IMG/VR virus record: IMGVR_UViG_3300021197_001813
Location: 1-22,601 of that record
Direction: 5' to 3' (one strand)
DNA from: a virus
DNA length: 22,601 nucleotides
A program made the translations under genes and the position numbers. Numbering within the stretch: the first letter of the stretch is position 1; each line of letters opens with the position of its first letter. This document shows positions 1 to 21,977 of the stretch, piece by piece. A model generated the notes under the pieces. The model was given only the letters and a program-made list of their open reading frames with translations. It was not told where the DNA came from and did not search any database.

Positions 1-499
1 CTTGGAAAGAAGACATAATCCACAAAGACATCTTTTCTTCGGCAAAAAACGATACTTGCATCGGCCTGGGGGTCGTCTCGCCTACAGGTCGCTGAAACGG
101 AGGTTCTTTTGCTCCCAGCACTGACCACGCTGGAGTGAGGTCAATTCTTATGCCTCCATCCAGCTCTGGCTTATCTCCAGTATTGTTGTGTCCAGTTACA
201 TCATCAATGACGCACCAAGCGCCTCTAGTTGCACCAGTACCTCCCTCTGCCGCGGTCTGGTTCGTCCCCCTTGTGTTCACATATTCAAGCCCAAAGTTGG
301 CAGCCTCAACGTTTGTATCTGGAATGTATTTGTCGCCACCAGAACCCCAAGACGTTCCGGTTATTATTCCTGACTTTAGGTTATGCTCGTTGATCCTGCC
401 CTGAGCCTCCATGGCTGCAGGCACAAACCCGTCATTGAGGCCCTCTTCTGTGATGACTTTATTGGGCCCTAATATGCTTTCTGGGAACTTCCAACTCAT
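1..499 (-). CDS. Probable virion structural protein, 3' end beyond the window
   Basis: The minus strand is open from an ATG at 499 to the window edge, giving 166 codons without a stop. The protein begins MSWKFPESILGPN and includes DKYIPDTNVEAANFGLEYVN and a Gly/Thr-rich stretch. The start overlaps the stop of the upstream tail gene as ATGA (496-499), the coupling used throughout this cluster. I do not recognise the family. Its place just after the tail nozzle gene suggests another tail or virion protein, for example a minor tail or internal protein. No signal peptide or membrane segment is seen. The real length is unknown because the gene is truncated. Confidence 0.75.
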   Translation of the reverse strand, partial: MSWKFPESILGPNKVITEEGLNDGFVPAAMEAQGRINEHNLKSGIITGTSWGSGGDKYIPDTNVEAANFGLEYVNTRGTNQTAAEGGTGATRGAWCVIDDVTGHNNTGDKPELDGGIRIDLTPAWSVLGAKEPPFQRPVGETTPRPMQVSFFAEEKMSLWIMSSFQ

Positions 500-2826
500 T
501 GCTGAACCCTCGCGCCGCCGGATGGGTGTGGTACGTAGTCGTACGACAGACCCACGAACTCAATCTTATCAGAAGACTCTAAGACGATTTTAAAAACCTC
601 ACATCCCGGTACAAATACCTTTGCCTTAGACCAGTAAGGTCTGGCTTTTCTGATGGTCTCTCCAGAGTCAAGCTTTGTAGTACCGTAAAACGGAGGCACG
701 TCCTTTTCGTAATACAGATTAACGGTCTCAGTGTGAACGATACTTTTTCTCCAGTCCCTGTACACCTTTACATTAAGACTTTGCGACGAGGTCTCCAACA
801 TCCATATGTAAACCGTAATTGGTGTCTTTGCATCGTACTGCGCTTCGTTTAACAGCCAGTTTGTTTCTATAGTGTAAGTCCTGGCGGGCAGTGCGTAGAC
901 TGTGCTGGCCACCTCTTTGTCCAAAAGGTAGGTCGAAAAAGGCGTTAAATTGGGCTCTGTGCCCACCGAGCCTGTCGCCAGCATGTAAGAGCGGTGATCT
1001 TGCGTAACGCAAACAGACGAGGCCTTTATGTCCGTTCTAGTGCGCCACCCGGTATTGGGCTGCCTTGAGTCAAAAACAAAACACTTGTCATTTACCTTAC
1101 TGCTGTACATCGGAACCCAGCATCTGTACTCACCAGATTCTAAATCCACCGCAGCAACTGATTGTTTTTGTCTTGAAGTGTTGAGGTATCTCAGCTCTTC
1201 TCGGATACTTTCAGAAAAATATGCAACTTTTCCGTTCTGGTACGCATAAAATGCACGCTTCCCTAGCCAGATTGTGGTCCCGTCCGGCATAGATGCGATT
1301 GAGCTCGGGGCAACACATCCGTATTGCCTACTGAGGGTCGTGACGGCAAATCCCGTTTCTTGGCTTGTGTCTTGTATTAAAAATGTAGAGCCCTCGGTAA
1401 ACACCAGCAGGCCCTCTTGCACCGTTGCCATTCCTGTAATCATGCCTCCAGACGGATCTGGGTAGAACAGGTTGTCCTCGAGGAGCGTTCCCCATCGACC
1501 CTTCATGGAATATCTTACTAAGCCGGGGTCACTGGGGTCGTTTGCAAAAAACATTCTTCCAAATGCCTGCTTGCATAGACGAAATCGCTGCATTGGAACA
1601 ACCTTTGGAGACTCTGCAATAAGCCAAGCGTCTGGGCCATTATCAATGTAAATTTCACTCTGGTTGTCCGGCAAAGTGGAAAAAGTAAACACCCCGCCGT
1701 CTGCATTTGAGGGCAAAAGAAAAAGCGTATTGAAGGACTCTTGATTCAACGAGTCCCTTGTGCGCAAAAGATTTCGACCAATAGTCTTCGCCTCCGAACT
1801 GCGCTCTTGGCAAACAGAAACGTTTTGCCACATTATTTGCTTCAACAGGTTTTCGGGCGGCTGACTTAACTGTTCTTTGTCATAGGCCGCCTGACCAACC
1901 AACGTGCCAACAGGTATGTTTTCAGGCCCTGCTGCTGACTGCTGATGCCACGTAACTGTGTTGCTCGTCGGTGAAACGGCTGAAAGATTGCCGTACTTGT
2001 CAACCCATTGCACAGCGCCAGTATATGATGCTGACCTTAATATGCCCGGAGATATGCCGTTCCTAAGAGCGATTGTAGAAAAAGACGTTTTTTCTTTACT
2101 GGCTCCGCGCTCCCCCTCAACCGTTCCATCTGAAAATGTGGTGCCAATGCGACCCCTGCCAAACGCTGTATGCATCTGCGTCTTTCTAGAAAGAGAATTA
2201 GGAGTCCATTGACTAAAAATATTTGCGTCGTGAGAAAACCCTTCAGAGTTTGGGGTTGTTGATGTTTGCGTTGAATCAGCGTCATCTTCAAAGGTGAACC
2301 TCACACCCCCCTCGGGCCCCAGAAGTGAAGGGGCTCCTGGAACCTTGTCATATCCAAGAGGAGCAAAGTGACCGTCTTCGTCGTAGAACCGCGGTCGCGC
2401 ATCATGTTGGCTGATAACTACAATTCCATTAGAGCACTGCTCAAACTGTGTAGGGAATTCTGGGAATGAAGATTTTTCTTCGTTAGGCTCATATGCATAG
2501 GCCTCATTCCATGAGCGAGACCACCCATTAAATTCAAGCAATACTCTTGTAGTTCCATTGTGCGCCGTGGCCAAAAGAGCTTCTTTCTGACCGTCTCGAA
2601 GAGTACCGTGAAAGATTCCGTTCATATCCGCAAAAGAAGGTTGAGCAGTTCCGCCATACGCAGGAATGTACGGAGCAGGCCCGCTTACGCTTCTAAGCGT
2701 ATTTCTGCGCGTCTCCGACATATTGTTGATCTCATTTGCCAACTCGTCTGGAGAAAATATCTTAGAAGTAACTGCTCGGATGTTGAGAAGGCCCGAGCGT
2801 TTAGTCGGACGCTCATCTGACATCAT
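496..2826 (-). CDS. T7 gp12-like tail nozzle protein (tail tubular protein B)
   Basis: The product has 776 residues, close to the roughly 790 of T7 gp12. It has no membrane segment and is rich in Trp, Tyr and short beta-like repeats. Examples are ALLATAHNGTTRVLLEFNGW near residues 84-103, a NGIVVISQHDARPRFY segment near 133, and a middle part running FANDPSDPGLVRYS to TEGSTFLIQDTS. These 'look up the value, print the state' segments are typical of beta-propeller nozzle proteins. In T7-like particles this protein forms the distal tail tube below the adaptor, and the adaptor gene lies just upstream here. Its start overlaps the stop of the preceding small gene. Two adjacent ATGs (2826 and 2823) are possible. 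The call rests on fold-type features and gene order, not on a diagnostic motif. Confidence 0.6.
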   Translation of the reverse strand: MMSDERPTKRSGLLNIRAVTSKIFSPDELANEINNMSETRRNTLRSVSGPAPYIPAYGGTAQPSFADMNGIFHGTLRDGQKEALLATAHNGTTRVLLEFNGWSRSWNEAYAYEPNEEKSSFPEFPTQFEQCSNGIVVISQHDARPRFYDEDGHFAPLGYDKVPGAPSLLGPEGGVRFTFEDDADSTQTSTTPNSEGFSHDANIFSQWTPNSLSRKTQMHTAFGRGRIGTTFSDGTVEGERGASKEKTSFSTIALRNGISPGILRSASYTGAVQWVDKYGNLSAVSPTSNTVTWHQQSAAGPENIPVGTLVGQAAYDKEQLSQPPENLLKQIMWQNVSVCQERSSEAKTIGRNLLRTRDSLNQESFNTLFLLPSNADGGVFTFSTLPDNQSEIYIDNGPDAWLIAESPKVVPMQRFRLCKQAFGRMFFANDPSDPGLVRYSMKGRWGTLLEDNLFYPDPSGGMITGMATVQEGLLVFTEGSTFLIQDTSQETGFAVTTLSRQYGCVAPSSIASMPDGTTIWLGKRAFYAYQNGKVAYFSESIREELRYLNTSRQKQSVAAVDLESGEYRCWVPMYSSKVNDKCFVFDSRQPNTGWRTRTDIKASSVCVTQDHRSYMLATGSVGTEPNLTPFSTYLLDKEVASTVYALPARTYTIETNWLLNEAQYDAKTPITVYIWMLETSSQSLNVKVYRDWRKSIVHTETVNLYYEKDVPPFYGTTKLDSGETIRKARPYWSKAKVFVPGCEVFKIVLESSDKIEFVGLSYDYVPHPSGGARVQQ

Positions 2827-3158
2827 TCACCGTCTTTAGCTTGAGTAGCCTTTTTGCTCACCGGCGTTTTTTTCTTTACAGTTGTCTTTTTGGATGCGGA
2901 CTTTTGAAGCTCCTCAACTGCACTTTCCAGCTCTTTAATTTTACTGAGCAAGGCAGCCGTGTCTCCTGACACAAGCTCTGACTGCTTTACTAGCTCATGC
3001 TCCTCTGTGACAAGCTGTCGAGCCAAGCCAAACCTTTGGATCCAAGCAGATGTTGTTCCATGCCTATTTACTGTTGCCCAGCACATGTACTCTTCGATAC
3101 TGCCATCTTCCGGGACATATCGAAGCACGTTTCCGGCCTTTAATTTAGATTCACTCAT
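2823..3158 (-). CDS. Small virion-cluster protein with coiled coil and lysine-rich tail
   Basis: The product has 111 residues starting MSESKLKAGNVLRYVPEDGS. A longer in-frame start at 3191 exists, but it lies inside the adaptor gene with no ribosome site. The ATG at 3158 has GGAGAAG nearby and sits 8 bases past the adaptor stop, so I chose it. The N-terminal half (EYMCWATVNRHGTTSAWIQR) looks like a compact beta domain. The middle (LLSKIKELESAVEELQKS) is a short coiled coil. The end is a Lys/Thr tail (KKTTVKKKTPVSKK) that could bind DNA or be disordered. It sits between adaptor and nozzle genes, so a structural or assembly role is plausible. No family is recognised. Confidence 0.75.
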   Translation of the reverse strand: MSESKLKAGNVLRYVPEDGSIEEYMCWATVNRHGTTSAWIQRFGLARQLVTEEHELVKQSELVSGDTAALLSKIKELESAVEELQKSASKKTTVKKKTPVSKKATQAKDGE

Positions 3159-3166
3159 TACTTCTC

Positions 3167-5098
3167 CTACTGATTTGGCGTATTCCACCACTGACGATAC
3201 CTTAGACTTGTCCTGTATCCAGGGGTGGCTCTAGACAAGCGTTTGAGCATAGGGACCGCCGATGATGCAAGGTCTCCATACCGTTTAGAAAGTGTTACGA
3301 GGTTTCTCTCATACCGCCCCTTTGCGAGGCGCATCATATTAATATTACCTTCAGTTTCATACAGCAACTGAAGCGCCCGGTCAACCAGCAAGTCGCACGC
3401 CTCTGCGTGTATCAACGGGACATCTTGATTATCCTTGAGCTCTTTTGGCCTTCGTATGCATCTGATCTCAACTTCGTATCTGTCATTAGGAGTAGGGTAC
3501 ATACCGATAGTCTGATACCCGTGCGTATCACGAAGCCTGCGGTGATAGTCGGGAAGGATGGTGCCATCATCAATGAAATATCCTTGGTTGTCCCAATCTA
3601 CATTTACTTCTGCTAACAGAAAAAACGCATTAGGAAGATCTAGTTTTTTTAAGCCTTCTACCCACTGCCCAGGCTCTACTACTCCGCTCGATGGAGTGCC
3701 TGTGTTTAGCAGGGTATAGTTTGTAAAGTCAGCAGTAATCCTTCTTCTATACACCCTTACATGCCAACCACTTAGTCTTGAGTTTACCCTGACAAAGCCC
3801 TCATTATACTGAGGCGGAATATCTCCTACAAACGCCCCATTGTGACCAGAGGATAATGGTCCAGAGCCCATCATCATAAATCCCTGCATGTACTGGATGT
3901 TTGGAAGAGTCAAGACAACCGCAGCGCCGCCTGCAGAAATAATCCCTTGGCCTGTATCAGAGGCGTTAACTGTCACTACTTTTGTAGACGCAGGAGACGG
4001 GGCGCTTTCGTACAAGGGCTCTCTAAAACGATTACGCCCTGCCTGAGACCTGTTAGCCGCGCCCTTTCTTCCGTCACCGTCGGTCCACTCTGCTGCAGTA
4101 GGAGCAGATCCATACTCTGGATTAGCCCAGTCGTAAGGGTTGTCGTTCCACAATGAAAGCCCTTGATTTCTAAACCAAATGTCCCTCTTTCCCCAAGTGT
4201 ATGTGATCACGTACTCAAATTGACCAGCAGGCTCAGGACCCTTCCATCTTGGGTACTTAGTAATGCTCTGTGGATTATCATACTGCCCGAAGTCTACCGT
4301 ATTCGAAAGCGCTGCATCAGGGGCAACTGATGGCCCCTGTATCTGCTTATGCTGCCTTCGGTAAATAACTCTTGGAATCCCCTTCGCTACATCCGTATGC
4401 TTGTCTAAGATGTTTTGACGCTCTGCATCCTCTTGGCTGACGACCGACATGGGCCAAGAGTTATTTGTCTTCCAAAGCCTCGTGCTATGCACTTCAATAA
4501 TGTCGTCAGGAAGAGCATACTCTTGCGTGTAAATCCTGTATCTAAATGGCCCACTGCCATATTTAGAAGTATCCCACGGAGTCCATAAGCTTAATATTTT
4601 ACCAGTAGCCGGTGTCGTTCTATTCCACTGCAAGGGACGAGACACCTGAGTCTGCGGATATGAAGCGTTCCAAACTGTTCTAATAATATTTCTATGCCAC
4701 ACATTGTTTGAGTCTTGAATCTCAATAACTCGCCCGTCCCAAGACCTGTCTGTTGGCCAGTCAGTTAAGGTCCCTCCAGCACCAACAGGGTCCTGCTTTA
4801 TAACCCAAGGATTGGGCTGCAACACTTCACCAGTAGCACCCTTGGGAAACATAGGGTTCCCGTCCACATCCCAAGTTAGGTCCGTAGCAAAAGATACTGT
4901 ATTAGACGCATCAGGAATGACATCAGGCTGAGTTGCGACCCTAAGTATTTCTTCAAAGAAAAGAAACGGTGCTTCAAGGGCTATAAGATTGTAAGCCCTA
5001 TTGATGAACTTGTTCATACGCTCGTCAGCACCAGTGCTATTTTTTGGGCCGTAGTCGGCCTGAGCGTACATTGCCTCTCTAATGTCCTTCAAGTTCAT
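3167..5098 (-). CDS. Head-to-tail adaptor (T7 gp11-like) with a large insertion
   Basis: The product has 643 residues. The first 55 or so (DERMNKFINRAYNLIALEAP) and the last 100 or so (HAEACDLLVDRALQLLYETE, then RLAKGRYERNLVTLSKRYG) are helical and resemble the adaptor or tail tubular A proteins that sit under the portal. Those proteins are usually only 160-200 residues. Here about 450 residues rich in Trp, Pro and Gly (roughly 60-530) separate the two helical parts. These could form an outward domain, for example a fibre or appendage attachment site. Start at 5098 has GAGGTG six bases upstream. A strong terminator (5111-5145) lies just before it, so the gene is probably reached by readthrough. 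An alternative is a fused minor tail protein. Confidence 0.55.
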   Translation of the reverse strand: MNLKDIREAMYAQADYGPKNSTGADERMNKFINRAYNLIALEAPFLFFEEILRVATQPDVIPDASNTVSFATDLTWDVDGNPMFPKGATGEVLQPNPWVIKQDPVGAGGTLTDWPTDRSWDGRVIEIQDSNNVWHRNIIRTVWNASYPQTQVSRPLQWNRTTPATGKILSLWTPWDTSKYGSGPFRYRIYTQEYALPDDIIEVHSTRLWKTNNSWPMSVVSQEDAERQNILDKHTDVAKGIPRVIYRRQHKQIQGPSVAPDAALSNTVDFGQYDNPQSITKYPRWKGPEPAGQFEYVITYTWGKRDIWFRNQGLSLWNDNPYDWANPEYGSAPTAAEWTDGDGRKGAANRSQAGRNRFREPLYESAPSPASTKVVTVNASDTGQGIISAGGAAVVLTLPNIQYMQGFMMMGSGPLSSGHNGAFVGDIPPQYNEGFVRVNSRLSGWHVRVYRRRITADFTNYTLLNTGTPSSGVVEPGQWVEGLKKLDLPNAFFLLAEVNVDWDNQGYFIDDGTILPDYHRRLRDTHGYQTIGMYPTPNDRYEVEIRCIRRPKELKDNQDVPLIHAEACDLLVDRALQLLYETEGNINMMRLAKGRYERNLVTLSKRYGDLASSAVPMLKRLSRATPGYRTSLRYRQWWNTPNQ

Positions 5099-5110
5099 AT
5101 ATCACCTCAT

Positions 5111-5145
5111 AAAAAAGGGGCGGAGGCCAAAAACCTACCGCCCCT
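5111..5145 (-). terminator. Rho-independent terminator after the capsid genes
   Basis: Read on the minus strand, AGGGGCGG (5145-5138) pairs with CCGCCCCT (5123-5116), extended by AGG/CCT across a one-base bulge. A run of six T follows (5116-5111). The 80-base gap between the decoration gene and the adaptor gene holds little else. The T-run ends only about three bases before the GAGGTG ribosome site of the adaptor gene, so termination would cut the transcript just ahead of that gene. Confidence 0.85.
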
Positions 5146-5178
5146 ACACTACCACCAAGTAGTCGTAACTTCTACAGA

Positions 5179-5703
5179 TTAGCCAGCGAAATTAACGTAT
5201 ACGTTTCCGGAACCAGCGGCTCCGATCGCGTCACCGAGGACAACGCCCACTTCTGTGTTTGCTGCAGAAGCAGCAGCGTCATCTAGCTGACCACCAGCAG
5301 TATGCACAACAAGTGCGTCGTTAGCCGCAGATGCGCTATTGACTACCGCAACACCAACGCCACGGGTAAGAACAAACCCGTAATGAAGTGCAGGAATCCC
5401 TCCAGAAGGATTCGCTGCTGTTGGGACTTGTTGAGCAACACCGACGTATCGGTCCATTGCCATTGCTGCCGTAGCAAGGTCAGCAAAGTCGTAACCGGCC
5501 AGACCTGAGGTGGCTGATGCAGCGGCTGCAGGAACCTTTGCACAGGTGATTCCGTAGGGAATAGGATTTGCCGCACGCACATATGTGTACACAGCGTTTC
5601 CATTATTAGCAGTTGGAACTGTAATTTGGAATCCCAATGGAGCCTGTTGACTTGTTGTCGTTTGAGTAACGCTGACACCAGCGGCTGTTGTAAATCCAGA
5701 CAT
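5179..5703 (-). CDS. Probable capsid decoration or head-stabilising protein
   Basis: The product has 174 residues and is rich in Ala, Gly and Val. It has almost no charge in its first third (MSGFTTAAGVSVTQTTTSQQ) and ends with GVVLGDAIGAAGSGNVYVNF. No membrane segment is seen. It lies immediately downstream of the major capsid gene with its own AGGAGG ribosome site, one of the best in the window, which suggests abundant synthesis. Small Ala/Gly/Val-rich beta proteins in this position are commonly head-stabilising or decoration proteins. I infer the role from position and composition rather than from a motif. It is the last gene before the capsid-unit terminator. Confidence 0.55.
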   Translation of the reverse strand: MSGFTTAAGVSVTQTTTSQQAPLGFQITVPTANNGNAVYTYVRAANPIPYGITCAKVPAAAASATSGLAGYDFADLATAAMAMDRYVGVAQQVPTAANPSGGIPALHYGFVLTRGVGVAVVNSASAANDALVVHTAGGQLDDAAASAANTEVGVVLGDAIGAAGSGNVYVNFAG

Positions 5704-5712
5704 GTTAGCCTC

Positions 5713-6864
5713 CTAAGCTACTGCGCCACCGGTGACAGCACCGTTTGCACGAAGTTGGTTAGTGTGGATGCCCATATTTAACACGATCTCGTAACGGAAG
5801 AGGTCCTGCTCTGGAATACGGAATGGTCCGCGTACAGAGAAGTCACCCTTAGTTTCGCGATTTGCATCATGGCCAAGCGTGTATGCGTACCATGTTGCGG
5901 TGTTAAGGAAGTAAATGACACCATCGTTAGCAGGCCCTGGGGCTCCGCCCTGGTTGAACGCTGCGCTTGTAATATCAATGCTGTCTTCAAGGTAGAAGTC
6001 TGCATCGAGGAACTTAACGCCCTGTTGGATCTTGCGTGGAGCACGATCGCCTTCTTTGGTCGAATCAGTGATGATGCGTACCTGTGAATCAAGGCTGTCA
6101 AGGTAGTTAAGGTAAGACGCTTCATCTCCGAGGAGAAGGTCAACTGGACCCATGGTCTTCATCTGACGAGAAGCTGCGTAATAAACTTCGCGCATGAATT
6201 TACGACCATTAGAAGCAGCAAAACCAGCACCCGGAATATCTGCGAATTGATTGTACCACCCATCAGTTGTTCCAGAGGTAAGGCCGAAACGAAGGTCAGA
6301 CAAACCAACAGCAGCACCACCGGCTTCCTGTGAGCCACCACCAGAGCGTGGAGCAAACTTAATTGCGCCAGATCGAGCAGCACCGTTCGGGCTGTAAGTC
6401 GTTGCTCCGTTAAGAGTAGCGAAGCCACCCACTCCAAGGCCTGTTCCCTGTGAGAACTGCTCTGCAATTCGCTCGTGGAAATCAGCAAGAGCTAACTCTG
6501 GGTAATGTTGAATAATACGCGCAAGGTCCATCTCACCGTTGGCCTCTGCAAGGTCCTTACCGGGAACGTCAAACGCATAAATCAAACGAGGTGCGTATGT
6601 ATCACCGCGTGTTGCGTTTTGATTACGGCCACCCGCGATGACTTCAGAACCTGTTACTACTTGAGTAACGGTACCTGGTCCGCCGGTTACAACCGCAAAT
6701 TCACGGAATGGGCCCTTGAGGACGCTGCGGTCCATGTTCCCTTTATTAATGACACGGTCCAATACCGGGTGCCATGTTGCAAAAAGTTCAGAGTATGAAG
6801 GCATAAGCTCTTGTAGAGCGGTAGCCAACACATCTGGACTGATTCCAGTTCCTACTGTAGGCAT
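5713..6864 (-). CDS. Major capsid protein (HK97 fold)
   Basis: The product has 383 residues, the usual size for an HK97-type coat protein without a propeptide. It follows the scaffold gene directly, with only two bases between the scaffold stop and this ATG. Its AGGAGA ribosome site lies in the last scaffold codons. Segments in keeping with a coat protein include an extended N-terminal arm (to about residue 60), a Gly-rich loop with FATLNGATTYSPNGAARSG, and a conserved-looking C-terminal segment RGPFRIPEQDLFRYEIVLNM. It is rich in Ala and Gly with few Cys residues. The call is supported by size, composition and the scaffold–coat–decoration order. The fold itself cannot be proved by eye. Confidence 0.8.
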   Translation of the reverse strand: MPTVGTGISPDVLATALQELMPSYSELFATWHPVLDRVINKGNMDRSVLKGPFREFAVVTGGPGTVTQVVTGSEVIAGGRNQNATRGDTYAPRLIYAFDVPGKDLAEANGEMDLARIIQHYPELALADFHERIAEQFSQGTGLGVGGFATLNGATTYSPNGAARSGAIKFAPRSGGGSQEAGGAAVGLSDLRFGLTSGTTDGWYNQFADIPGAGFAASNGRKFMREVYYAASRQMKTMGPVDLLLGDEASYLNYLDSLDSQVRIITDSTKEGDRAPRKIQQGVKFLDADFYLEDSIDITSAAFNQGGAPGPANDGVIYFLNTATWYAYTLGHDANRETKGDFSVRGPFRIPEQDLFRYEIVLNMGIHTNQLRANGAVTGGAVA

Positions 6865-6866
6865 TT

Positions 6867-7718
6867 CTATCTCCTAGCGTTTTTGAGTGCTCTACGAGCC
6901 ACAATCATTCTTTTGTCATCTAACGTTGACGTTTCATTAATGTCCATCATCTGCTGTTCAGGTGATGAACGTGTGGTGGCTCCAGAGGTGATCTTCGCCG
7001 CAGGACGAGGATTCGCTTTCGGCGCTTGCCTAACAGCGTTCTCTGCCAACCGTATTGCGTATTTATCGGGAACGCCATCCCGTTTTGACTCGATAGCAAT
7101 TCGCATTTGCTCCTCGCTCAAGCCAAGAATCTTCACAGCAGAATCGGGCTCCCAGTCATTCTGAATAAGAAGCCCTAAAGCTTCTCTCATCTCTGAGTTT
7201 TCAAAAATGTCTTTGTGCTCTCGCTCAAAGTTGTCGGCCCAATCGGAGGCCTCCTGCATTTCGTACTGCTCAATCTGCTGCTTATACTGTTCAAACTCTT
7301 GAGAGGTCTGCTGCTGTGCAGACAAGGCATCCTCAAGCTTTTGTTGAAATTCAGATACTCTTGGGTCTTCTTCGCCGACCATTAAAGCGTCATTTAGACG
7401 ACGCATTTGATCAAGCTCCGACTCAATAGAAGAATACTTATTATTGTAAATAGACTCCATTCGCCCATGAATATTATGATACATGTCCGGCAAATCATCG
7501 ATGCCGCCATCCCAAGCTTCAAAGTCAAACTCAGGAAGTACCGGCTCTTCAATGGCTGCTTCTTCAAGGCCGCCAGATGCCACTTCAGTCTCTGTCCCCA
7601 CAGAAGAGGGAACCGCCCCAGAGTCCGGGGTAGCGTCAGAATCAATAGCAGGAGAAGAAGATTCAACAACCGGTTCGGCTGCGGCCCCCTCTAAAGCTTG
7701 GGTGGTTTCTTCGCTCAT
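6867..7718 (-). CDS. Capsid scaffolding protein
   Basis: The product has 283 residues and is strongly acidic in its first third. A long Gln/Glu-rich coiled coil (about residues 95-165, including EFEQYKQQIEQYEMQEASDW) follows. It ends in a short basic helix, DDKRMIVARRALKNARR. This plan, acidic coiled coil plus a basic C-terminal coat-binding helix, is typical of phage scaffolds such as that of P22. The gene sits directly before the capsid gene, as expected. The ribosome site is GAAGGG. The stop of the upstream 107-residue gene abuts its ATG. That neighbour shares the C-terminal helix. Confidence 0.8.
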   Translation of the reverse strand: MSEETTQALEGAAAEPVVESSSPAIDSDATPDSGAVPSSVGTETEVASGGLEEAAIEEPVLPEFDFEAWDGGIDDLPDMYHNIHGRMESIYNNKYSSIESELDQMRRLNDALMVGEEDPRVSEFQQKLEDALSAQQQTSQEFEQYKQQIEQYEMQEASDWADNFEREHKDIFENSEMREALGLLIQNDWEPDSAVKILGLSEEQMRIAIESKRDGVPDKYAIRLAENAVRQAPKANPRPAAKITSGATTRSSPEQQMMDINETSTLDDKRMIVARRALKNARR

Positions 7719-8042
7719 TTATTTTCCCTTCTTATTGTTAAGGGCCTTACGAGCAGCAGATAGTCGGATAACACTTACCTTCGGCATCATGCGATTCATT
7801 CCGAGCTCTTCTTCGATGTCTTCGAATTTAGATGACTTCATGTCTTCGGAGCCTTCTTTTTTAACAAGCTCCCATCCATACTCATCCATTTTCTTTTCAG
7901 CCTCTTCGATGGAGGATGCCTCTTTCATCAAGCACTCGATCATATCATCTCGAGAATATTCTTTTTCTTCGTCCTTGTCAGACTTATCGGAAACTTCTTC
8001 GGACATTTCCTCAGACTCCTCCATTTCTTCATTATACGCCAT
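7719..8042 (-). CDS. Small acidic protein with a scaffold-like C-terminal helix
   Basis: The product has 107 residues. The first 35 are extremely acidic (NEEMEESEEMSEEVSDKSDK). A middle segment, YSRDDMIECLMKEASSIEEA, looks helical. The end is a basic helix, RLSAARKALNNKKGK. That end resembles the scaffold C-terminus (RMIVARRALKNARR), sharing the pattern ARxALxN plus flanking basic residues. The gene abuts the scaffold gene and is the first gene after a likely promoter at 8059-8087. I infer a scaffold accessory, or a decoy that binds the same coat site. No named family is recognised. Start ATG at 8042 has GGAG six bases upstream. Confidence 0.75.
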   Translation of the reverse strand: MAYNEEMEESEEMSEEVSDKSDKDEEKEYSRDDMIECLMKEASSIEEAEKKMDEYGWELVKKEGSEDMKSSKFEDIEEELGMNRMMPKVSVIRLSAARKALNNKKGK

Positions 8043-8058
8043 AATATGCTCCAGTCTT

Positions 8059-8087
8059 CAAATACATTAATTTACAAATCCAGTCAA
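8059..8087 (-). promoter_or_regulatory. Candidate internal sigma70 promoter for the capsid genes
   Basis: On the minus strand TTGACT (8087-8082) is followed after exactly 17 bases by TATTTG (8064-8059). The -35 box overlaps the stop of the zinc-ribbon gene. The expected start of transcription, near 8052, leaves a short leader before the 8042 ATG. It occupies the only gap, 41 bases, in the upstream half of the late cluster. The -35 is good and the -10 is weak (three of six). Confidence 0.5.
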
Positions 8088-8470
8088 TGATTTGCCGTAT
8101 GCTTTCGCTTCTTGAGAAACTTACCACGATCTTCATGGTCGCGAAACCCCTGCTTTTTTGCTTGGCTGTCGCAATGGTTTCTAACCTTATCGTAATGATC
8201 GCGATACTTCTTTGAGTCTTTATTCAAAAACTCGGCATTAGGGTTGTCTTTTTTGTACTGACGATACTCTGCATTAGTCTCAAATGACTTCTTAGTTTGA
8301 CAGCCAAAAGATAATTTTTTATCAAACACTGCTCCAATTGTTTTTACCGGAGACACAAGGCGCACTGCAGGTTTTCCACATGCGCATTGAATAGAATCTA
8401 TTTGTGAAAGAGGCACAAACACTTCGCTCTTGCCACAGTCTCCAGTACATCTGATGTCATATAAAGGCAT
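8084..8470 (-). CDS. FmdB-like zinc-ribbon protein
   Basis: The product has 128 residues beginning MPLYDIRCTGDCGK, with a second pair at QCACGK. Cys8, Cys12, Cys29 and Cys31 would form a small zinc ribbon like those of FmdB-type proteins, which start MPxYxYxC. The remainder is lysine-rich and charged, with two further Cys residues and a basic C-terminus (FLKKRKHTANH), suggesting contact with nucleic acid or a virion partner. It overlaps the portal stop by one base (TAATG), so translation is coupled to the portal. Zinc-ribbon proteins of this kind occur near phage portals, but their job is not established to my knowledge. Confidence 0.7.
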   Translation of the reverse strand: MPLYDIRCTGDCGKSEVFVPLSQIDSIQCACGKPAVRLVSPVKTIGAVFDKKLSFGCQTKKSFETNAEYRQYKKDNPNAEFLNKDSKKYRDHYDKVRNHCDSQAKKQGFRDHEDRGKFLKKRKHTANH

Positions 8471-10269
8471 TATATCCCCAAAATTCCACGTAACTCATTA
8501 GGCAACTTGCTGCCGGGACCACCAGCCTCTGAAGGAGCGGACGGGGGCTCCAGACCTGGAGGCATCCCCCCAGTAGCAATCGTGTCCGGTGACGGCTCTG
8601 CGGCTGCTGACGATGGCGGAGCTTGCTGCACCTGCTGCATCTGGGCGGCCATTTCTGACTGCTTCTGCTGCATTTCTTCTTCCGAAATCGTAAGGTCTTT
8701 CATATTTAATAAATCTAAAAGCTTAGACACTAGCCTGTTTTTATCTACATTTGGAGCCTGCATCAGAACTGGCAAAAATGACTGAATACTCCTAAGCTGC
8801 GCCAGCTTGTTATTTTCTGCTGGACTGTACGCAATGGCCTCATAGTCATAATCATACCCCCCTGCTTCTGCTGAACCGATGTTTTCTCGGCTAATAACAA
8901 CAGGCTCTCGAGAATCAGCAACACGAGCTGCAATCTGACTTGTTGGCTCTAAAAACTCCTCAAACAAAGCAATTGTATTGATTGCTAGTTGAGCAATTAC
9001 GTCATTGACTGCCTTGATTCTTCTTCCATTTCGAGTCCTTGTGGCAGAGTCTGCGAGTGCAACCTCTGTTGCAACGTCAGTAACACCGACGACACCACGA
9101 CTATATTGCGGAACGCCCAAAACAAACTCAATGACCTGCTGCGCCCTAGCCCGCATTTTGTCAAAGCTTGGGGTAAGCCCAGGCTGCGGTGTCGCGCCAA
9201 AAAGGTCCCTTAAAGGCACGTCGGCCTTGCCGTGGACATCAACTACCGATCCAGGCTCTGCGGCATCTCTAATGGCCGTTTTAACCTGCTCTGGATTATC
9301 GACCAGACCGCTTTGAATAAGAGTAACAGGAATTGACGACTGTGCATGCCAGAGCTCCAGTGTGTCCAGCTCATTTAGTCGCTGCTGCAAGCTAGAAATA
9401 AGCGCAATATCAGAAAGGCCACCAAGGTCTTTCATGTTCTCATTAAACTGTAGCATTACAAAGGGGTTATCGCAGTACGTATACGGCAAGTCCCCTTCAA
9501 ACAAAGGCTCATCAACACCGTCCATAATATGATAATACTTTTTGTTTTCAAAATCGTAAAACTCGTAAACGGTTGCCCAGTTATACACGTCTCTAGACGC
9601 ATTGTTCACCATGCTCCCGCCGCCACCATAGCCCTTCAACCAACTTGGGTATCCACCAAAGCTAACGTCTTTTGAGGCCTTTTTCGGGTAGTAACCGCCC
9701 TTCCGGCCCGGCTTTCTTACTCGACTCTGAAACTCTGATTTAGTAATTACAGTAACTTCAACCAGATACCGAATATCTTCCCATCGGGTGGAGGACATAT
9801 CAAAAAAGATGTGCCTAGGGTCAACGACCATATACTCCACTGTTTCTCGCTTAAAGTTCCAAACAGATTTAATAAACCCGCGACCACAGATGGCTGTTCC
9901 AATAGATAGCCGCCAAAGGTCCGCATGAAGCTTTTGCCTATAAAATACATCGTTAATTAAAGCCTCTCGAACCATAGCTGATTCTGTGTTCTTTTTTCGT
10001 CGAGCACTAACGGTAACTTTAGGATTTGTAGGACAAATGTTTGCTACCATTGTGTCAATGTATGCATACGGATAGTTTGTCTCGAAGTTTACGTTATCGT
10101 CATCAATTCCAGTCTCTGCCGTGAACGCTCCGGTCGGGGCATCATAGGCATTATTCCAATACTCTCCTAAGTACCATCGCCTCCAAGAGTCCCATCTCTG
10201 ACGCTCAGATCCCGCTTTCGCTTGATGCGTTTTTACAATCCCCTGAATCTGTTCATGCGTTAGGCCCAT
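8470..10269 (-). CDS. Portal protein
   Basis: The product has 599 residues, within the usual range for portals of short-tailed phages. The N-terminal part (RQRWDSWRRWYLGEYWNNAY) and the segment VDPRHIFFDMSSTRWEDIRY are typical of portal wing and stem regions. A helix-rich segment follows around residues 290-440 (LISSLQQRLNELDTLELWHA). The C-terminal 80 residues are Gln/Pro/Ala-rich and probably flexible. The portal forms the dodecameric ring through which terminase packages DNA. It lies downstream of terminase and upstream of scaffold and coat, the expected order. The ATG abuts the stop of the preceding small gene. Confidence 0.8.
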   Translation of the reverse strand: MGLTHEQIQGIVKTHQAKAGSERQRWDSWRRWYLGEYWNNAYDAPTGAFTAETGIDDDNVNFETNYPYAYIDTMVANICPTNPKVTVSARRKKNTESAMVREALINDVFYRQKLHADLWRLSIGTAICGRGFIKSVWNFKRETVEYMVVDPRHIFFDMSSTRWEDIRYLVEVTVITKSEFQSRVRKPGRKGGYYPKKASKDVSFGGYPSWLKGYGGGGSMVNNASRDVYNWATVYEFYDFENKKYYHIMDGVDEPLFEGDLPYTYCDNPFVMLQFNENMKDLGGLSDIALISSLQQRLNELDTLELWHAQSSIPVTLIQSGLVDNPEQVKTAIRDAAEPGSVVDVHGKADVPLRDLFGATPQPGLTPSFDKMRARAQQVIEFVLGVPQYSRGVVGVTDVATEVALADSATRTRNGRRIKAVNDVIAQLAINTIALFEEFLEPTSQIAARVADSREPVVISRENIGSAEAGGYDYDYEAIAYSPAENNKLAQLRSIQSFLPVLMQAPNVDKNRLVSKLLDLLNMKDLTISEEEMQQKQSEMAAQMQQVQQAPPSSAAAEPSPDTIATGGMPPGLEPPSAPSEAGGPGSKLPNELRGILGI

Positions 10270-10536
10270 TTAATCATTCCCCTGCTTTGCTATCTTGCCC
10301 ATATTCAATGCAAACTGAGCCTGCTTTTCTGTCTCTTCATTAAACTTGTCTTTGTTTGCAAGAACATGTTTTGCATAGGCTTGAGCGTTGCCTGTACCAT
10401 CTTTTTTGGTAAAACCAGCGCGTTTGGCCTTGGCGGTAAACTCGCCCTTTGTGCCCTTTCTCTCCATCCCCTTGTTTGCTTTTTTAAGGAAATAGTTTTT
10501 AGCAATGCCTTCGCGCGTGGCTTTAATTTTATCCAT
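10270..10536 (-). CDS. Small basic protein, viral FTxxAKRAG…YAKHVLANK type
   Basis: The product has 88 residues and is rich in Lys. The N-terminus MDKIKATREGIAKNYFLKKA resembles those of the next two upstream genes. The rest, GEFTAKAKRAGFTKKDG then AYAKHVLANKDKFNEETEKQ and AQFALNMGK, fits a short motif I associate with small basic proteins of several DNA viruses (G-x-F-T-x-x-A-K-R-x-G, V-L-A-N-x-x-K/R-Y/F, A-x-F-A-x-N). I know no function for it and cannot confirm the match here. A DNA-binding or virion role is an inference from charge and location between terminase and portal. Confidence 0.7.
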   Translation of the reverse strand: MDKIKATREGIAKNYFLKKANKGMERKGTKGEFTAKAKRAGFTKKDGTGNAQAYAKHVLANKDKFNEETEKQAQFALNMGKIAKQGND

Positions 10537-10538
10537 GA

Positions 10539-10694
10539 CTATTTGTCACTCTTCTTTTTCGACCTACTAATAGTACTGTCTTGATGATCGTAGGCTTTAT
10601 CGTCACCCTTGTCGCCTTTCTTGTCTTTCTTTTTAGACTTTTTGGCGTAGTAGTTCTTTACGATCTCCATTCGCTTGCTTCTCATCTTATCCAT
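10539..10694 (-). CDS. Very small lysine-rich protein of the MDK group
   Basis: The product has 51 residues starting MDKMRSKRMEIVKNYYAKKS and is then almost all Lys, Asp and Ser (KKKDKKGDKGDDKAYDHQDS). A longer frame reaches 10766 but runs into the upstream gene. The ATG at 10694 has GGAG six bases upstream and starts one base after the preceding stop, so I prefer it. The N-terminus matches those of its two neighbours. The tail is likely disordered. No family is recognised; a DNA-binding or internal virion role is a guess. Confidence 0.65.
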   Translation of the reverse strand: MDKMRSKRMEIVKNYYAKKSKKKDKKGDKGDDKAYDHQDSTISRSKKKSDK

Positions 10695-10695
10695 T

Positions 10696-11319
10696 TTATT
10701 CTCCGCCAGATTCACGGTATGGTTTATTTGGATTAGCTCTGCTGAACTCTCTTGCTCGACGAGCAAACGGGGTCAGTTCATATACGTCTTTAGATAAGTC
10801 TTGTAAATCTCGAAGGTACTTATATTCAGAAACAACATCATCTTGCGCTTGAACAGTATCTTTATTTTCCAGAACCTTTGGATACATTCCCCTTTCTTTC
10901 ATAAACTTCAAGGATTCCTCAGTCTTACGCAATGCTTTTTCTGCGGCGACTCGAAATTCGTCAGAAAGCTTCATGGCCCCTTGTTGTTCCAGCTCCAAAA
11001 GCTTGCGATAAATGCCTCCTCCTGGACCGAATTCTGGTTCAAACTCTCCTAATCCATATGGATGCAAGTCCTCTCTAAATCTCTTGTCCGTCATGTCTAA
11101 ATTCTCTTCAGCCTTGTCTATTTTTCTGAGGCGAGAATCTACAGATTCTGAAAACGACTCCCCTCCGACAGGAGACGAAGCGACCTTCACATCTCCTATA
11201 GAAACTGACCCTGGAAGATCTTCAGTGCTTCCGCCAGCCGCCTCAAATTCTTCTACGTCATCGTATTTTCCGGAAAGCTTTTTAGCAAGCTCCGTTCGTT
11301 TTTTCTTCAGCTTATCCAT
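10696..11319 (-). CDS. Unknown protein of the MDK group, helical and charged
   Basis: The product has 207 residues starting MDKLKKKRTELAKKLSGKYD. An ATG six codons further upstream (11337) is possible. The 11319 start has GGAG seven bases before it, one base after the previous stop, and gives the same MDK beginning as two downstream genes, so I chose it. Residues about 60-120 are charged and helical. A segment FGPGGGIYRKLLELEQQGAM is the most distinctive part, and the C-terminus (LTPFARRAREFSRANPNKPY) is basic. No motif points to an enzyme. Its position between terminase and portal suggests a head or packaging role. Confidence 0.7.
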   Translation of the reverse strand: MDKLKKKRTELAKKLSGKYDDVEEFEAAGGSTEDLPGSVSIGDVKVASSPVGGESFSESVDSRLRKIDKAEENLDMTDKRFREDLHPYGLGEFEPEFGPGGGIYRKLLELEQQGAMKLSDEFRVAAEKALRKTEESLKFMKERGMYPKVLENKDTVQAQDDVVSEYKYLRDLQDLSKDVYELTPFARRAREFSRANPNKPYRESGGE

Positions 11320-11320
11320 T

Positions 11321-11512
11321 TCATGCTCCAGATTCATTCATAGACGTAAACATTTCAATCATTTGGTCATCGACCTGCTCAACAGGAACACCAAAGTGTG
11401 CTGCTGCGGCACTTCTTTGATTTTTTTTGCGAAGAACATCTCCCGTCACTTTGGCAGTAAGCTGCCGCAAGCCCTGTGGAGACCCGTCAAACCCAAGCTT
11501 GTCTTCTTCCAT
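11321..11512 (-). CDS. Small unknown protein downstream of terminase
   Basis: The product has 63 residues and includes LRQLTAKVTGDVLRKKNQRS and AAAAHFGVPVEQVDDQMIEM. The second part could form a small helix-turn-helix (AAAHFGVPVEQV). The start overlaps the terminase stop by one base (TAATG), so it is translated with terminase. No family is recognised. A role linked to terminase or portal is only suggested by position. Confidence 0.65.
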   Translation of the reverse strand: MEEDKLGFDGSPQGLRQLTAKVTGDVLRKKNQRSAAAAHFGVPVEQVDDQMIEMFTSMNESGA

Positions 11513-13209
11513 TACTTCCTCCGTCTAACGGAACGGTAGCGCAATTTACCGCGCTTCTTGCCGCTAGAACCGTCAGCCTTTCTATACGCCTGTAACTGGT
11601 TCCAAGTCAAATCCTTAAATAAAACAACATTTCCCTCGCTGCCTTTGCTGATTGAGCCTTTGGGGCGTTGCGGCACCCTTCTTGCGCCAACAACCGCCAA
11701 CTGTAGGGCAGAAATCTTATCCCAGTGATGACGCTCACGTCTCTTTGGGCCTACAGAGCCACGCAGCATCTCCGAAACTACTGACGCTTCTGTTCTTTTG
11801 TCGTGCCGATATGACGATAGTTGACCAAATGTGTCCTCGTCATTTAGCACGAGCTCGTCAAGTAGCGCATCTTGCAGCCATCCGATCATCTCTTCCAGCT
11901 TTTTGGAGGTACTTGTGAGCCCTGCTTTGTAGGGCTTCTCGTAGTATAAGTTTTTGTAGTCTGCCTGTTTAGCGAGTGCAATGGTTGCGGCACCGACTCC
12001 GTTTGACTCGATGACGACGAGTGCTCGGTTATATTTCTCTGCGGCCTCGAGGAGCTTTTGAGTGAAGAGGATGGGCTCGGTGTGGTCTGCATAGCAAGCA
12101 ACTTGTGTCCACTCCCCTTCATATACTTTAACCACTTGGAAAGACGCATGGTCTCGTGCTGCGTGCCCTGCTGGGTCCACTCCGATGACATAAATTGCTC
12201 CCTCTTCAGGTGGCTCATACTCCATGTATGAAGGAGACCACTTCTCCATCTTTCTACTTCTGTGCCTCTCAAGCAAGCCTTCATTAAAAATTGCTCTGTG
12301 GTTGGAGATCCAACAAGAGGTGTCGTCAAACGGATAGAACACTCTAAACAATGCAGGGTCTCTACGGATTTGTGCGTCTGTGTTCATCATAAAGCGCCTA
12401 AATGCAAGATTTTCTTTTGTCAGGCCCTCTTCTCCGTACTTCTCAATCAGCCTAAGCTCTTCTAAGGTGAGCTTTTCATCTTTGCCCCACGCTCTTCGGT
12501 TTAGTTTACCGTCCCAAAACGGAAAAAAAGCGTACACCCATCGGCCACTACCAGCCCTTGCGTCGTTGCATTGGTCGTGCCACCAGTCTCCCGCATGCAA
12601 AGGGGTGGACTCCAGCACCATTAACGAGTGGTTTCTGTTAATCATTGACGGATAAATCAATGAAAACTGACCCTCGGGGTCCGACCAAAACGGAAGTTCC
12701 GATCCATGAAACGAATCGGGTGATTGACCAATACCTACACTGCCAGACTCACCTGACAAAACGCGCATCTTACCACCTCTGCTGGGGTCGAAAGATAGCT
12801 GGCGCACTTCTCGCGTGACAGCCGTGGATGTACGCAACTGCTCAGGCCACCGAGCATGCGTAAAGTGAACTCTCCGATGAAGATACTCTGCGCGATCCCT
12901 TGTGTCCGCAATACATACGTGGTCCATGCCTGGTGTGTATGCTGTCTTGGCATAGGCACACAGCTCCGCGGTCAAAGATTTTCCAGCCTGACGATAGCCC
13001 AAAAGGACTAACCACTTTGTCTGACCATCTGCAGTCTTTGGGGGATCAGAATAATACGACAAAAGCGTAGACTGAAGCCTGTCTGTGATTTTATACGGGT
13101 CAAAATTTACCGCACGACCCGTGGACTGGTCCTGTATCTGCCCGTATGCCCTAAGCATCGCGCTCGGAGTTGGGTTTACTTTAGGCTTATTCGTTGACCG
13201 CTTCGGCAT
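11512..13209 (-). CDS. terL: Terminase large subunit (packaging ATPase and nuclease)
   Basis: The product has 565 residues with both expected domains. The N-terminal ATPase has a Walker A motif GYRQAGKS at 71-78 and a candidate Walker B-like stretch ending near Glu171 (HGSELPFWSD). The C-terminal RNase H-like nuclease has the acidic residues expected: Asp345 in YVIGVDPAG, Glu401 in LVVIESNGVGAA, and Asp498 in RHHWDKISALQ. The last 50 residues are very basic (GKKRGKLRYRSVRRRK). It docks on the portal and pumps DNA into the prohead. The start at 13209 has GAGGCGG upstream and overlaps the end of the previous gene by 23 bases. Confidence 0.93.
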   Translation of the reverse strand: MPKRSTNKPKVNPTPSAMLRAYGQIQDQSTGRAVNFDPYKITDRLQSTLLSYYSDPPKTADGQTKWLVLLGYRQAGKSLTAELCAYAKTAYTPGMDHVCIADTRDRAEYLHRRVHFTHARWPEQLRTSTAVTREVRQLSFDPSRGGKMRVLSGESGSVGIGQSPDSFHGSELPFWSDPEGQFSLIYPSMINRNHSLMVLESTPLHAGDWWHDQCNDARAGSGRWVYAFFPFWDGKLNRRAWGKDEKLTLEELRLIEKYGEEGLTKENLAFRRFMMNTDAQIRRDPALFRVFYPFDDTSCWISNHRAIFNEGLLERHRSRKMEKWSPSYMEYEPPEEGAIYVIGVDPAGHAARDHASFQVVKVYEGEWTQVACYADHTEPILFTQKLLEAAEKYNRALVVIESNGVGAATIALAKQADYKNLYYEKPYKAGLTSTSKKLEEMIGWLQDALLDELVLNDEDTFGQLSSYRHDKRTEASVVSEMLRGSVGPKRRERHHWDKISALQLAVVGARRVPQRPKGSISKGSEGNVVLFKDLTWNQLQAYRKADGSSGKKRGKLRYRSVRRRK

Positions 13210-19607: not shown

Positions 19608-19855
19608 GTATGATAAAGCTTCCCATAAACAACAGAGGTGAGTCTGTTACGGTAGGGGTAGAGTATATTGCCTTCGTCAGCAAAGAGCCGAATGGAAGTG
19701 GCAGTTTGGTCCATATGGGTGTTCGTACCCTCGGTATGGAGAGAAGGGTAAGGCTTGCCGTAGTTCGCACCATTCTGTCGAAAGACCGGGTTGACGACAT
19801 GCTTCGCTCTTGCACTCAGGTGAGCGAGCCCGTCATGAGATGGGGAAACCAATGA
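19604..19855 (+). CDS. Small unknown protein before the methyltransferase
   Basis: The product has 83 residues starting with GTG at 19604, overlapping the previous stop (GTGA), behind AGGAGGTG. An ATG two codons later is an alternative. It has alternating strand-like segments (VTVGVEYIAFVSKEPNGSG, RRVRLAVVRTILSKD), suggesting a small beta protein. No family is confirmed. Its stop overlaps the methyltransferase start (ATGA), so the two are probably translated together. Confidence 0.65.
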   Translation: MSMIKLPINNRGESVTVGVEYIAFVSKEPNGSGSLVHMGVRTLGMERRVRLAVVRTILSKDRVDDMLRSCTQVSEPVMRWGNQ

Positions 19856-20910
19856 GACTCGGTAGTCTCTTTAGCGGAATAGGAGGTCTTGAGCTTGGTC
19901 TTGAGGCCTCCCTTGGAGCCACCACTGTGTGGCAAGTGGAGATAGATACCTATGCAAGACAAGTCCTCCAAAAAAATTGGCCCAAAGCAAGTCGAGATGT
20001 TTGCGACATCCGGCAAGCAGGAGCCCACAACCTTGAACCCGTCGATGTGCTTGCCGCAGGATTCCCCTGTCAGGGAATTAGTGTGGCAGGAAAAGGCAGG
20101 GGTCTCGAAGACGCGAGATCGGGCCTCTGGTTTGAAGCTCTTCGAATCATTCGCGAGATACGACCACCGATCGTCGTGCTGGAGAACGTGCCCGCAATCC
20201 GAACACGAGGGCTCGGAGTTGTACTCGGGGGCTTGGCCAGCCTCGGGTACGATGCGGAGTGGGGTATGCTCTCCGCTTCCGATGTCGGTGCCCCACATCA
20301 AAGAAGACGTTGGTGGTGCATCGCCTATATACCCAACGCCCAGCGCCTCCCCTTCCGGGACATCGAACAACGGGAAGAGGCCAGACGGGACGACGTACCG
20401 GACTGCGGGCAGGCCGTCTCTTCGTCACATGGCGAGGCACGGTCTCTGGCCTACGCCCACTTCGATAGGTCTGGACGGGGGAGGCAGGTCTCGGAAGAGG
20501 CTGGAGAAGTTGTGGCCAACTCCCAGAGCGTGCGAGGGAGCGTCTCCATCGGGAGGGAAGAATCCAGCGAAGCACGGACTACAACGTCGAGTATGGAGTA
20601 CTCCGACAGTTCAGGATTCAAAGAACAACGGCTCTGCCTCCCAACTCAGGAGGAACTCGGAGCCATTGAACGCTCAGGCACGTGGGCCCCTGAACCCAGA
20701 GTGGGTAGAGCTTCTCATGGGTTTCATGGCTGGTCATACGAGGGTGAAATGACATCCCAGAGTTGGGAGCTTGGTCTCGCGAGAACAGTGCAGCCCCGAA
20801 CGGTTCCTCATCGTGTATCAAGACTCAAGTGCCTTGGTAACGCAGTGGTTCCGATGTGGTCTTTTTGGATTGGAATCAAGACTAGAGAGGTGGTAGATTG
20901 GCTTCAGTAA
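19852..20910 (+). CDS. DNA cytosine-5 methyltransferase
   Basis: The product has 352 residues from ATG 19852, overlapping the previous stop. Conserved C5-methyltransferase motifs appear in order: SAM-binding FSGIGG (7-12), catalytic Cys73 in GFPCQGIS, ENV (111-113), QRRRWW (150-155) and LGNAVVP (328-334). The variable region before the last motif (about 158-270) contains repeated blocks of the form xAxSxxxR, such as LAYAHFDRSG and VVANSQSVRG. No restriction nuclease is seen, so it is likely an orphan enzyme protecting phage DNA or changing host methylation. Another complete reading frame is nested inside it at 19952-20752. The ribosome site is modest (GGGG); coupling probably matters. Confidence 0.93.
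   Translation: MRLGSLFSGIGGLELGLEASLGATTVWQVEIDTYARQVLQKNWPKASRDVCDIRQAGAHNLEPVDVLAAGFPCQGISVAGKGRGLEDARSGLWFEALRIIREIRPPIVVLENVPAIRTRGLGVVLGGLASLGYDAEWGMLSASDVGAPHQRRRWWCIAYIPNAQRLPFRDIEQREEARRDDVPDCGQAVSSSHGEARSLAYAHFDRSGRGRQVSEEAGEVVANSQSVRGSVSIGREESSEARTTTSSMEYSDSSGFKEQRLCLPTQEELGAIERSGTWAPEPRVGRASHGFHGWSYEGEMTSQSWELGLARTVQPRTVPHRVSRLKCLGNAVVPMWSFWIGIKTREVVDWLQ
19952..20752 (+). CDS. WPTP-repeat phage protein nested inside the methyltransferase gene
   Basis: A 266-codon frame, shifted by one base relative to the methyltransferase, lies wholly within that gene. It begins MQDKSSKKIGP with GGAG ten bases upstream. It carries features I associate with a phage protein type often found beside such methyltransferases: SSCWRT (74-79), YSGAWPASGTMRSG (91-104), four blocks YPTP, WPTPT, WPTPR and WSTPTVQD (127, 166, 188, 215), NNGSASQLRRNSEPLNAQ, and the ending PLNPEWVELLMGF (246-258) just before its stop. 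Motif order, spacing and the end point all fit a full-length protein. Function is unknown to me. Because both frames carry conserved motifs, I treat both as real. Confidence 0.72.
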   Translation: MQDKSSKKIGPKQVEMFATSGKQEPTTLNPSMCLPQDSPVRELVWQEKAGVSKTRDRASGLKLFESFARYDHRSSCWRTCPQSEHEGSELYSGAWPASGTMRSGVCSPLPMSVPHIKEDVGGASPIYPTPSASPSGTSNNGKRPDGTTYRTAGRPSLRHMARHGLWPTPTSIGLDGGGRSRKRLEKLWPTPRACEGASPSGGKNPAKHGLQRRVWSTPTVQDSKNNGSASQLRRNSEPLNAQARGPLNPEWVELLMGFMAGHTRVK

Positions 20911-21659: not shown

Positions 21660-21977
21660 ATGTCAGTAAATAAAGTAATTCTAGTAGGTAACTTGGGCGC
21701 AGACCCTGACAACCGCGGCGCCGTCACAAAGATGCGCATCGCTACCAGCGACAGGCGAAAGGCCGGAGACGAGTGGGTTGACCACACCGAGTGGCACAAT
21801 GTTGCCTGCTTCGGTAAGACTGCCGAAAACGTCTCTCGGTTTTGCCGCAAGGGGAAGCAGGTGTACGTTGAAGGTAAGATCCGAACCAGCAAGTATCAGG
21901 ACCGGGACGGCAACGACCGCTGGGCCACCGAGGTAGTGGCAGACAACGTACGCTTCTTGGGGTCGAAGGATGAATAA
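21660..21977 (+). CDS. ssb: Single-stranded DNA-binding protein
   Basis: The product has 105 residues, one OB fold. Hallmarks include the opening [19 protein letters not shown], the strand KMRIATSDR, the aromatic segment [19 protein letters not shown], and [20 protein letters not shown] followed by [15 protein letters not shown]. It ends at FLGSKDE and lacks the disordered tail with an acidic tip (DDDIPF type) by which bacterial SSB recruits host proteins. It therefore likely coats DNA during phage replication without that recruitment role. The ribosome site is AGTAGGAGAAGAAG. Confidence 0.92.

Follow-up and report, generated by a model that had tools for sequence, protein, structure and literature searches.

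The C5 methyltransferase M.EcoHK31I (YGGCCR) is built from two polypeptides (Lee, Kam and Shaw 1995, cited in PMC3404938). Its larger polypeptide contains motifs I-VIII, motif X and the predicted target recognition domain (TRD), and the smaller one contains motif IX (PMC3404938). In M.AquI, motifs I-VIII are located on one chain and motifs IX-X on the other (PMC3404938). C5 enzymes can be cut in two between motif VIII and the recognition domain, and the halves complement each other well (PMC5944983). In ShiLan, an out-of-frame HNH is present within a phage methylase (PMC11855218). M.BatI, an active C5 enzyme from a prophage, has a recognition region that is unusually short (PMC8936443). It is a possible characterised relative; its motif I differs.

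The locus described here is found in the window, a stretch of 22,601 nucleotides from the virus record IMGVR_UViG_3300021197_001813. It codes for a C5 methyltransferase in frame 0 (alpha) and for a second protein in the +1 frame of the same strand (beta, the WPTP protein). In M.EcoHK31I, too, the small ORF is reportedly nested out of frame in the large one. By the described partition of motifs, the window matches M.EcoHK31I, with I-VIII and X on the large chain and IX on the small one, where the identity of motif IX in the window rests on its position, on a homologous element in split relatives (E 4.6e-16) and on a weak in-register match to the canonical motif. However, the predicted recognition domain of M.EcoHK31I resides in the large subunit, whereas here selection in 50 gene pairs places recognition in the nested protein. 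Moreover, M.EcoHK31I belongs to a restriction-modification system, whereas no restriction enzyme was recognised near the window methyltransferase among the named products of the ten ORFs scanned, which are a part of those present.

The likeness to M.AquI lies in the split in the variable region, with motifs I-VIII on one chain. In some relatives, namely Streptomyces phage Samy (L002), Arthrobacter phage Jamun (L003), L173, L180 and L209, the second chain holds both IX and X as well. In contrast, the window keeps motif X on alpha and has beta fully nested, and is thus not of the M.AquI type. In ShiLan, as here, a phage methylase conceals an additional protein in another reading frame. The ShiLan protein is a mobile HNH insertion of patchy distribution, whereas the nested protein is present in every relative checked, and Pfam and NCBIfam searches did not detect an HNH in it. 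The same nested arrangement is found in Paenibacillus phage Shelly (gp55/gp56, KP296795), where the depositors used the label 'g55 internal gene' but annotated the nested gene as a hypothetical protein, without function. PHROGs lists phrog_363, to which alpha belongs, and phrog_1008, to which the nested product belongs, as separate families that are both named 'DNA methyltransferase', whereas at this locus they occupy two frames of the same DNA. In the searchable literature, the coverage of which excludes most subscription journals, we found no account in which nesting is family-wide, selection passes from one frame to the other, or cassettes are exchanged in two frames.

The two frames of the window locus

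The initial annotation had placed a methyltransferase at 19852-20910 and a nested protein of 266 residues at 19952-20752, and both ORFs were found at these positions (Table 1). Its list of nested motifs (SSCWRT, YSGAWPASG, four xPTP/WSTP blocks and LNPEWVELLMGF) is also correct. Separate similarity searches with the two frames, which it had suggested, gave distinct results. Alpha matches PF00145 (8.9e-46, confined to residues 1-189, profile search), phrog_363 (1.7e-69, PHROGs search) and TIGR00675 dcm (3.7e-38, NCBIfam search). Beta matches phrog_1008 (1.8e-28), with residues 8-263 aligned to positions 14-279 of 329, which is most of the profile length, and has no match in profile searches of Pfam or NCBIfam. 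A single-protein search of viral contigs did not identify a close relative of the nested protein, and the PDB yielded nothing for beta by sequence or profile search.

Table 1. Coordinates of the features of the methyltransferase locus in the window
Feature	Position	Strand	Basis
Alpha frame, C5 cytosine DNA methyltransferase, 352 aa	19852..20910	+	ORF, PF00145, phrog_363, TIGR00675
Alpha catalytic core, motifs I-VIII (LFSGIGG, PCQ, ENV, QRRR), aa 1-160	19852..20331	+	Conserved columns of alignment A7, AF2, selection
Shine-Dalgarno-like GGAG, 10 nt before ATG19952	19938..19941	+	Sequence
Nested +1 ORF (beta, 'WPTP protein'), ATG19952 to stop 20752, 266 aa	19952..20752	+	ORF, phrog_1008
AGGAG, 9 nt before TTG20033, alternative internal start	20019..20023	+	Sequence
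P-T-P blocks, nested frame: YPTP 20330-20341, WPTP about 20447-20458, WPTP 20513-20524, WSTP 20594-20605	20330..20605	+	Translation
Alpha-frame 'shadow' linker from motif VIII to motif X, aa 161-296	20332..20739	+	Low pLDDT, near-neutral in relatives
LNPEWVELLMGF, motif IX-like, nested frame	20690..20725	+	Near-invariant in alignment A6, homology to split relatives
Motif X of alpha, RLKCLGNAVVP	20821..20853	+	Alignment A7, strong alpha-frame selection past the nested stop in relatives

The conserved alpha motifs fall on residues 72-74 (PCQ), 111-113 (ENV) and 329-334 (GNAVVP) in alignment A7. In the nested frame, T129/P130, P167-P169 and T217/P218 of the P-T-P blocks are conserved (alignments A4/A6). 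The bases of LNPEWVELLMGF spell ..EPRVGRASHGF in alpha. With motifs I-VIII (PCQ, ENV) and motif X, the window alpha belongs to the C5 methyltransferases. It does not, however, have the recognition domain and motif IX of a single-chain enzyme in the same chain, since the Pfam match stops at residue 189, residues 181-296 are predicted to be disordered and are near-neutral, and the IX-like element is in the +1 frame. Between HGF and VPHRV (window 20719-20813), alpha is about 27 residues longer than most relatives; the locus L089 has a similar insertion, and the nested stop of the window falls within it.

Dual coding and internal initiation

When the window's own methyltransferase codons were shuffled synonymously (n=200), the +1 frame acquired a mean of 4.7 stops and was open in 0/200 cases. 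The real +1 frame has a single stop, the terminator of the nested ORF. Relatives were sampled from this methyltransferase family and not from C5 methyltransferases at large. In the 80 loci collected via the nested frame (L009-L088), the nested ORF lies in the +1 frame of a C5 methyltransferase in 80/80 cases. An independent set was collected via the methyltransferase frame only (L089-L168 and L269-L514), and here the nested profile matched in the +1 frame of all 228 distinct full-length genes, and in the +2 frame of none (0/228).

In the same 228 genes, nested-frame stops, for which the initial annotation had proposed to check homologous methyltransferases, are rare, and the dual-coding claim withstood this attempt at refutation. 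Over motifs IV-VIII, 19 stops in the +1 frame compare with 675±18 expected from synonymous shuffling, and beyond motif VIII there are 0 versus 242±12. A smaller run with 64 genes agrees with these counts. The +2 frame, used as a control, is not depleted over IV-VIII (797 stops versus 814 expected). Beyond motif VIII, a smaller shortfall is seen in this frame (815 versus 1018), and over LNP..MGF its stops exceed the shuffle expectation (177 versus 67.5). For the canonical control, 17 of 19 C5 methyltransferase genes were scored. Ten canonical C5 genes from six bacterial genomes, the same genomes as those of family members, have about 118 stops in the +1 frame versus about 115 expected, and the nested profile did not match in any of the ten. 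Among the seven scored genes in which the PF00145 match ends after motif VIII, six have zero +1 stops, with nested matches of 200-232 bit.

In the 64-gene run, the nested-profile score of the real gene was higher than that of all 100 shuffles in 64/64 cases; for the window's own score, the profile contained the window's sequence, and the phrog_1008 match is independent of that. When alpha is shuffled synonymously, WPTP profile scores remain moderate (median about 42 bits), since part of the sequence is dictated by the conserved motifs of alpha. It is essentially certain that the methyltransferase locus is dual coding, and chance is excluded as the reason. The long same-strand overlap with conservation in both frames, as originally proposed for the window, is thus borne out by the 228 relatives and by selection in 50 gene pairs (see below).

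The internal start was examined at most 30 codons upstream of the PCQ motif, counting +1 starts with a Shine-Dalgarno match of at least 5 nt. Such signals are present in 42/126 genes, compared with 5.6±2.0 (maximum 12) in synonymous shuffles. The locus L005, with AAAGGAGAGTTTTTATG, is an example. In the window there are three candidates, ATG19952 and TTG20033, each with the signal given in Table 1, and ATG19997. All three are possible, and the nested start is not fixed among them. The Shine-Dalgarno sequence before ATG19952 is modest, and the context of this codon, TATGCAAGACAAGT, is retained in L089, the nearest relative. An internal start, claimed from the outset to be an ATG, is upheld.

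Selection, motif partition and cassette exchange

Substitution rates in both frames were compared in 50 independent gene pairs with a mean identity of 0.876, aligned as nucleotides since protein alignment is unreliable in the cassette. Before the nested region (I-III), the three alpha codon positions (1/2/3) show.087/.044/.271 substitutions per site, and over IV-VIII the values are.096/.040/.201. From motif VIII to LNP, the pattern becomes.257/.076/.057, and over LNP..MGF it is.147/.052/.041. Past the nested stop, the values are.050/.016/.300. When substitutions from VIII to LNP are classed by their effect, alpha-altering and beta-silent ones score 2.52, alpha-silent and beta-altering ones 0.35, and those silent in both frames 2.87, which gives an omega of about 0.88 for alpha but of about 0.12 for beta. 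Constraint on beta is also seen over IV-VIII, in weaker form (alpha-silent and beta-altering 1.72 versus both-silent 4.63; 2.47 versus 3.40 in the non-overlapping control). Purifying selection acts on the alpha frame through motif VIII, on the nested frame from VIII to IX, and on alpha again for motif X.

The alpha frame contains 0 stops between VIII and LNP, whereas shuffling of beta codons predicts 354 (112 loci). Both frames are thus kept open over this stretch, which implies that alpha must be translated across it to motif X, and that its sequence there matters little. The selection analysis specific to the window relies on L089, the sole relative close enough, with which it shares 120/160 core residues and 145/242 beta residues. 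In the cassette region, beta codon positions 1/2/3 differ 40/39/72 times between the two.

The family distributes its motifs in three ways. In the nested form, which comprises the window and most loci, the IX-like element is in beta and motif X in alpha. In the split form, alpha ends after motif VIII, and beta has the IX-like element and motif X (Samy, Jamun, L173, L180, L186, L209, L214 and others). In the third form, the IX-like element and motif X are both in alpha, with the P-T-P blocks in the +1 frame (L006, L007, L231, L232, L237). In all three forms, each motif occurs once across the two products. The nested-frame consensus of the IX-like element is LNPxWVEWLMGFP. This C-terminal element of beta is clearly homologous (hhalign E 4.6e-16) to the element found ahead of motif X in the other two forms. 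Against canonical motif IX the element falls in register, but the match is weak (hhalign probability 0.7-1.8%), and the split and third forms align just as weakly with canonical motifs IX and X (1.8%). The name motif IX is for this reason based mainly on position.

The stretch from VIII to LNP behaves as a cassette that is exchanged between near-identical cores, as in the pairs L380/L398 and L280/L285. It is less than 45% identical in 16/67 pairs with a core identity of at least 95%, and in 92/145 pairs with a core identity of 90-95%. Where cassettes can be aligned, the beta frame is more conserved than the alpha frame in 117/120 pairs (mean 0.80 versus 0.61).

In the AlphaFold (AF2) model of alpha, the core has pLDDT values mostly above 90, residues 181-296 are below 50 and predicted to be disordered, and the motif X helix is confident. 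The beta model is of low confidence (mean pLDDT 58.9), with a helix at residues 249-256 in the position of LNPEWVELLMGF, and a fold search with this model gave no usable match. In view of the near-neutral evolution of the VIII-IX stretch and its predicted disorder, the alpha frame seems to be without a recognition domain of its own.

A putative two-polypeptide enzyme and its alternatives

Dual coding, internal initiation signals, the handover of selection between frames, the complementary motifs and cassette swapping were computed directly. As judged from sequence, the locus most plausibly encodes a two-polypeptide C5 methyltransferase with beta as the DNA-recognition part, a reading to which we assign a probability of about 0.78. 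Alpha would provide the catalytic domain with motifs I-VIII and, after a linker of little conserved sequence, motif X. Beta would in this phage be translated separately from a ribosome-binding site inside alpha, and would supply motif IX together with the putative region for target recognition. Both chains would then assemble into the active enzyme. Anti-restriction is the usual role of orphan phage methyltransferases, and the enzyme would most likely serve the phage to mark its own DNA against host restriction.

Alternatively, the nested protein could be a separate functional protein, such as a regulator, an inhibitor or a partner with another job, that shares its DNA with a self-sufficient methyltransferase. 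We regard this as unlikely, even though the nested ORF has initiation signals of its own and beta is without a relative in Pfam, NCBIfam or the PDB. None of the loci examined has the nested protein without a methyltransferase, and alpha is near-neutral exactly at the position expected for the recognition domain. Furthermore, split relatives carry motif X in the nested frame, with alpha stopping after VIII, and cassette swapping is typical of recognition domains. The same observations bear on the initial annotation, which had described two complete genes. Two overlapping ORFs are indeed present, but with alpha near-neutral and predicted to be disordered between VIII and IX, they are probably not complete, functionally separate genes. 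It had also assigned the WPTP protein to a separate phage protein type, whereas in every locus examined this protein is nested in, or overlaps with, a C5 methyltransferase. Standalone WPTP proteins, which had been expected, were not found among these loci. Two apparent cases, Virus Rctr197k (L004) and a Microcystis phage (L008), have an unannotated methyltransferase ORF in the other frame.

A clearly smaller probability is given to a single chain made by programmed ribosomal frameshifting, which would be read in frame 0 up to motif VIII and in the +1 frame through the WPTP region. Such a mechanism would agree with the change of the selected frame after VIII, and with the split relatives, in which the WPTP region, IX and X all follow in +1. 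However, in the nested class the ribosome would have to shift again, returning to frame 0, in order to reach motif X. A shift after VIII would also have no need for the open +1 frame upstream (19 versus 675 stops over IV-VIII) or for the weaker but visible beta constraint there, and it is at odds with the enrichment of internal Shine-Dalgarno sequences and starts. Finally, the +1 ORF could be a non-functional shadow, open by codon bias or as the relic of an older frame. This is very hard to reconcile with real profile scores above those of all 100 shuffles in every gene scored, despite the moderate scores that shuffled alpha sequences retain, with a more than tenfold depletion of stops and with selection on the +1 frame in the cassette.

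The arrangement is not peculiar to this phage; it is a family-wide architecture with a biochemical precedent in M.EcoHK31I. Returning to the two-polypeptide enzyme, it probably represents a large class of C5 methyltransferases, for the most part unrecognised, that occurs in phages and bacteria. In this class, a recognition subunit would lie wholly out of frame inside the catalytic gene, and recombination would swap a cassette that has to remain open in two frames, so that a single exchange provides a new recognition subunit while the catalytic chain stays intact. If so, half of the enzyme would be missing from the annotation of hundreds of 'DNA methyltransferases' in phages and prophages, and cloning or modelling of the annotated frame alone would miss the DNA-reading part. 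Specificity predictions from the annotated frame would then rely on sequence that is hardly under selection. The overlap is long, deeply conserved and on the same strand, and the division of labour between the frames can be read directly from substitutions. The locus also opens to testing how overlapping genes arise and are maintained.

Public annotation of this type of locus is inconsistent across L001, L002, L003, L004 and L008. Both frames are annotated in Shelly, only the nested frame in Rctr197k_201, and two neighbouring 'DNA methyltransferases' in Samy and Jamun. A prophage region of the E. coli PT62 chromosome (L515, NZ_CP090448) has two genes of this type, at L515 positions 1-526 and 2399-3254, about 2 kb apart, each of which matches both profiles, and L081 and L082 are tandem methyltransferase/nested pairs on one viral contig. 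In the window, the minus strand from 499 to 13209 codes for a virion structural protein, a tail protein, the major head protein, the portal and the terminase large subunit (PHROGs). The methyltransferase belongs to a plus-strand block together with a single-strand binding protein (21660-21977). Two antisense ORFs run across the methyltransferase, at 19816-20370 (184 aa) and 20147-20575 (142 aa), both on the minus strand.
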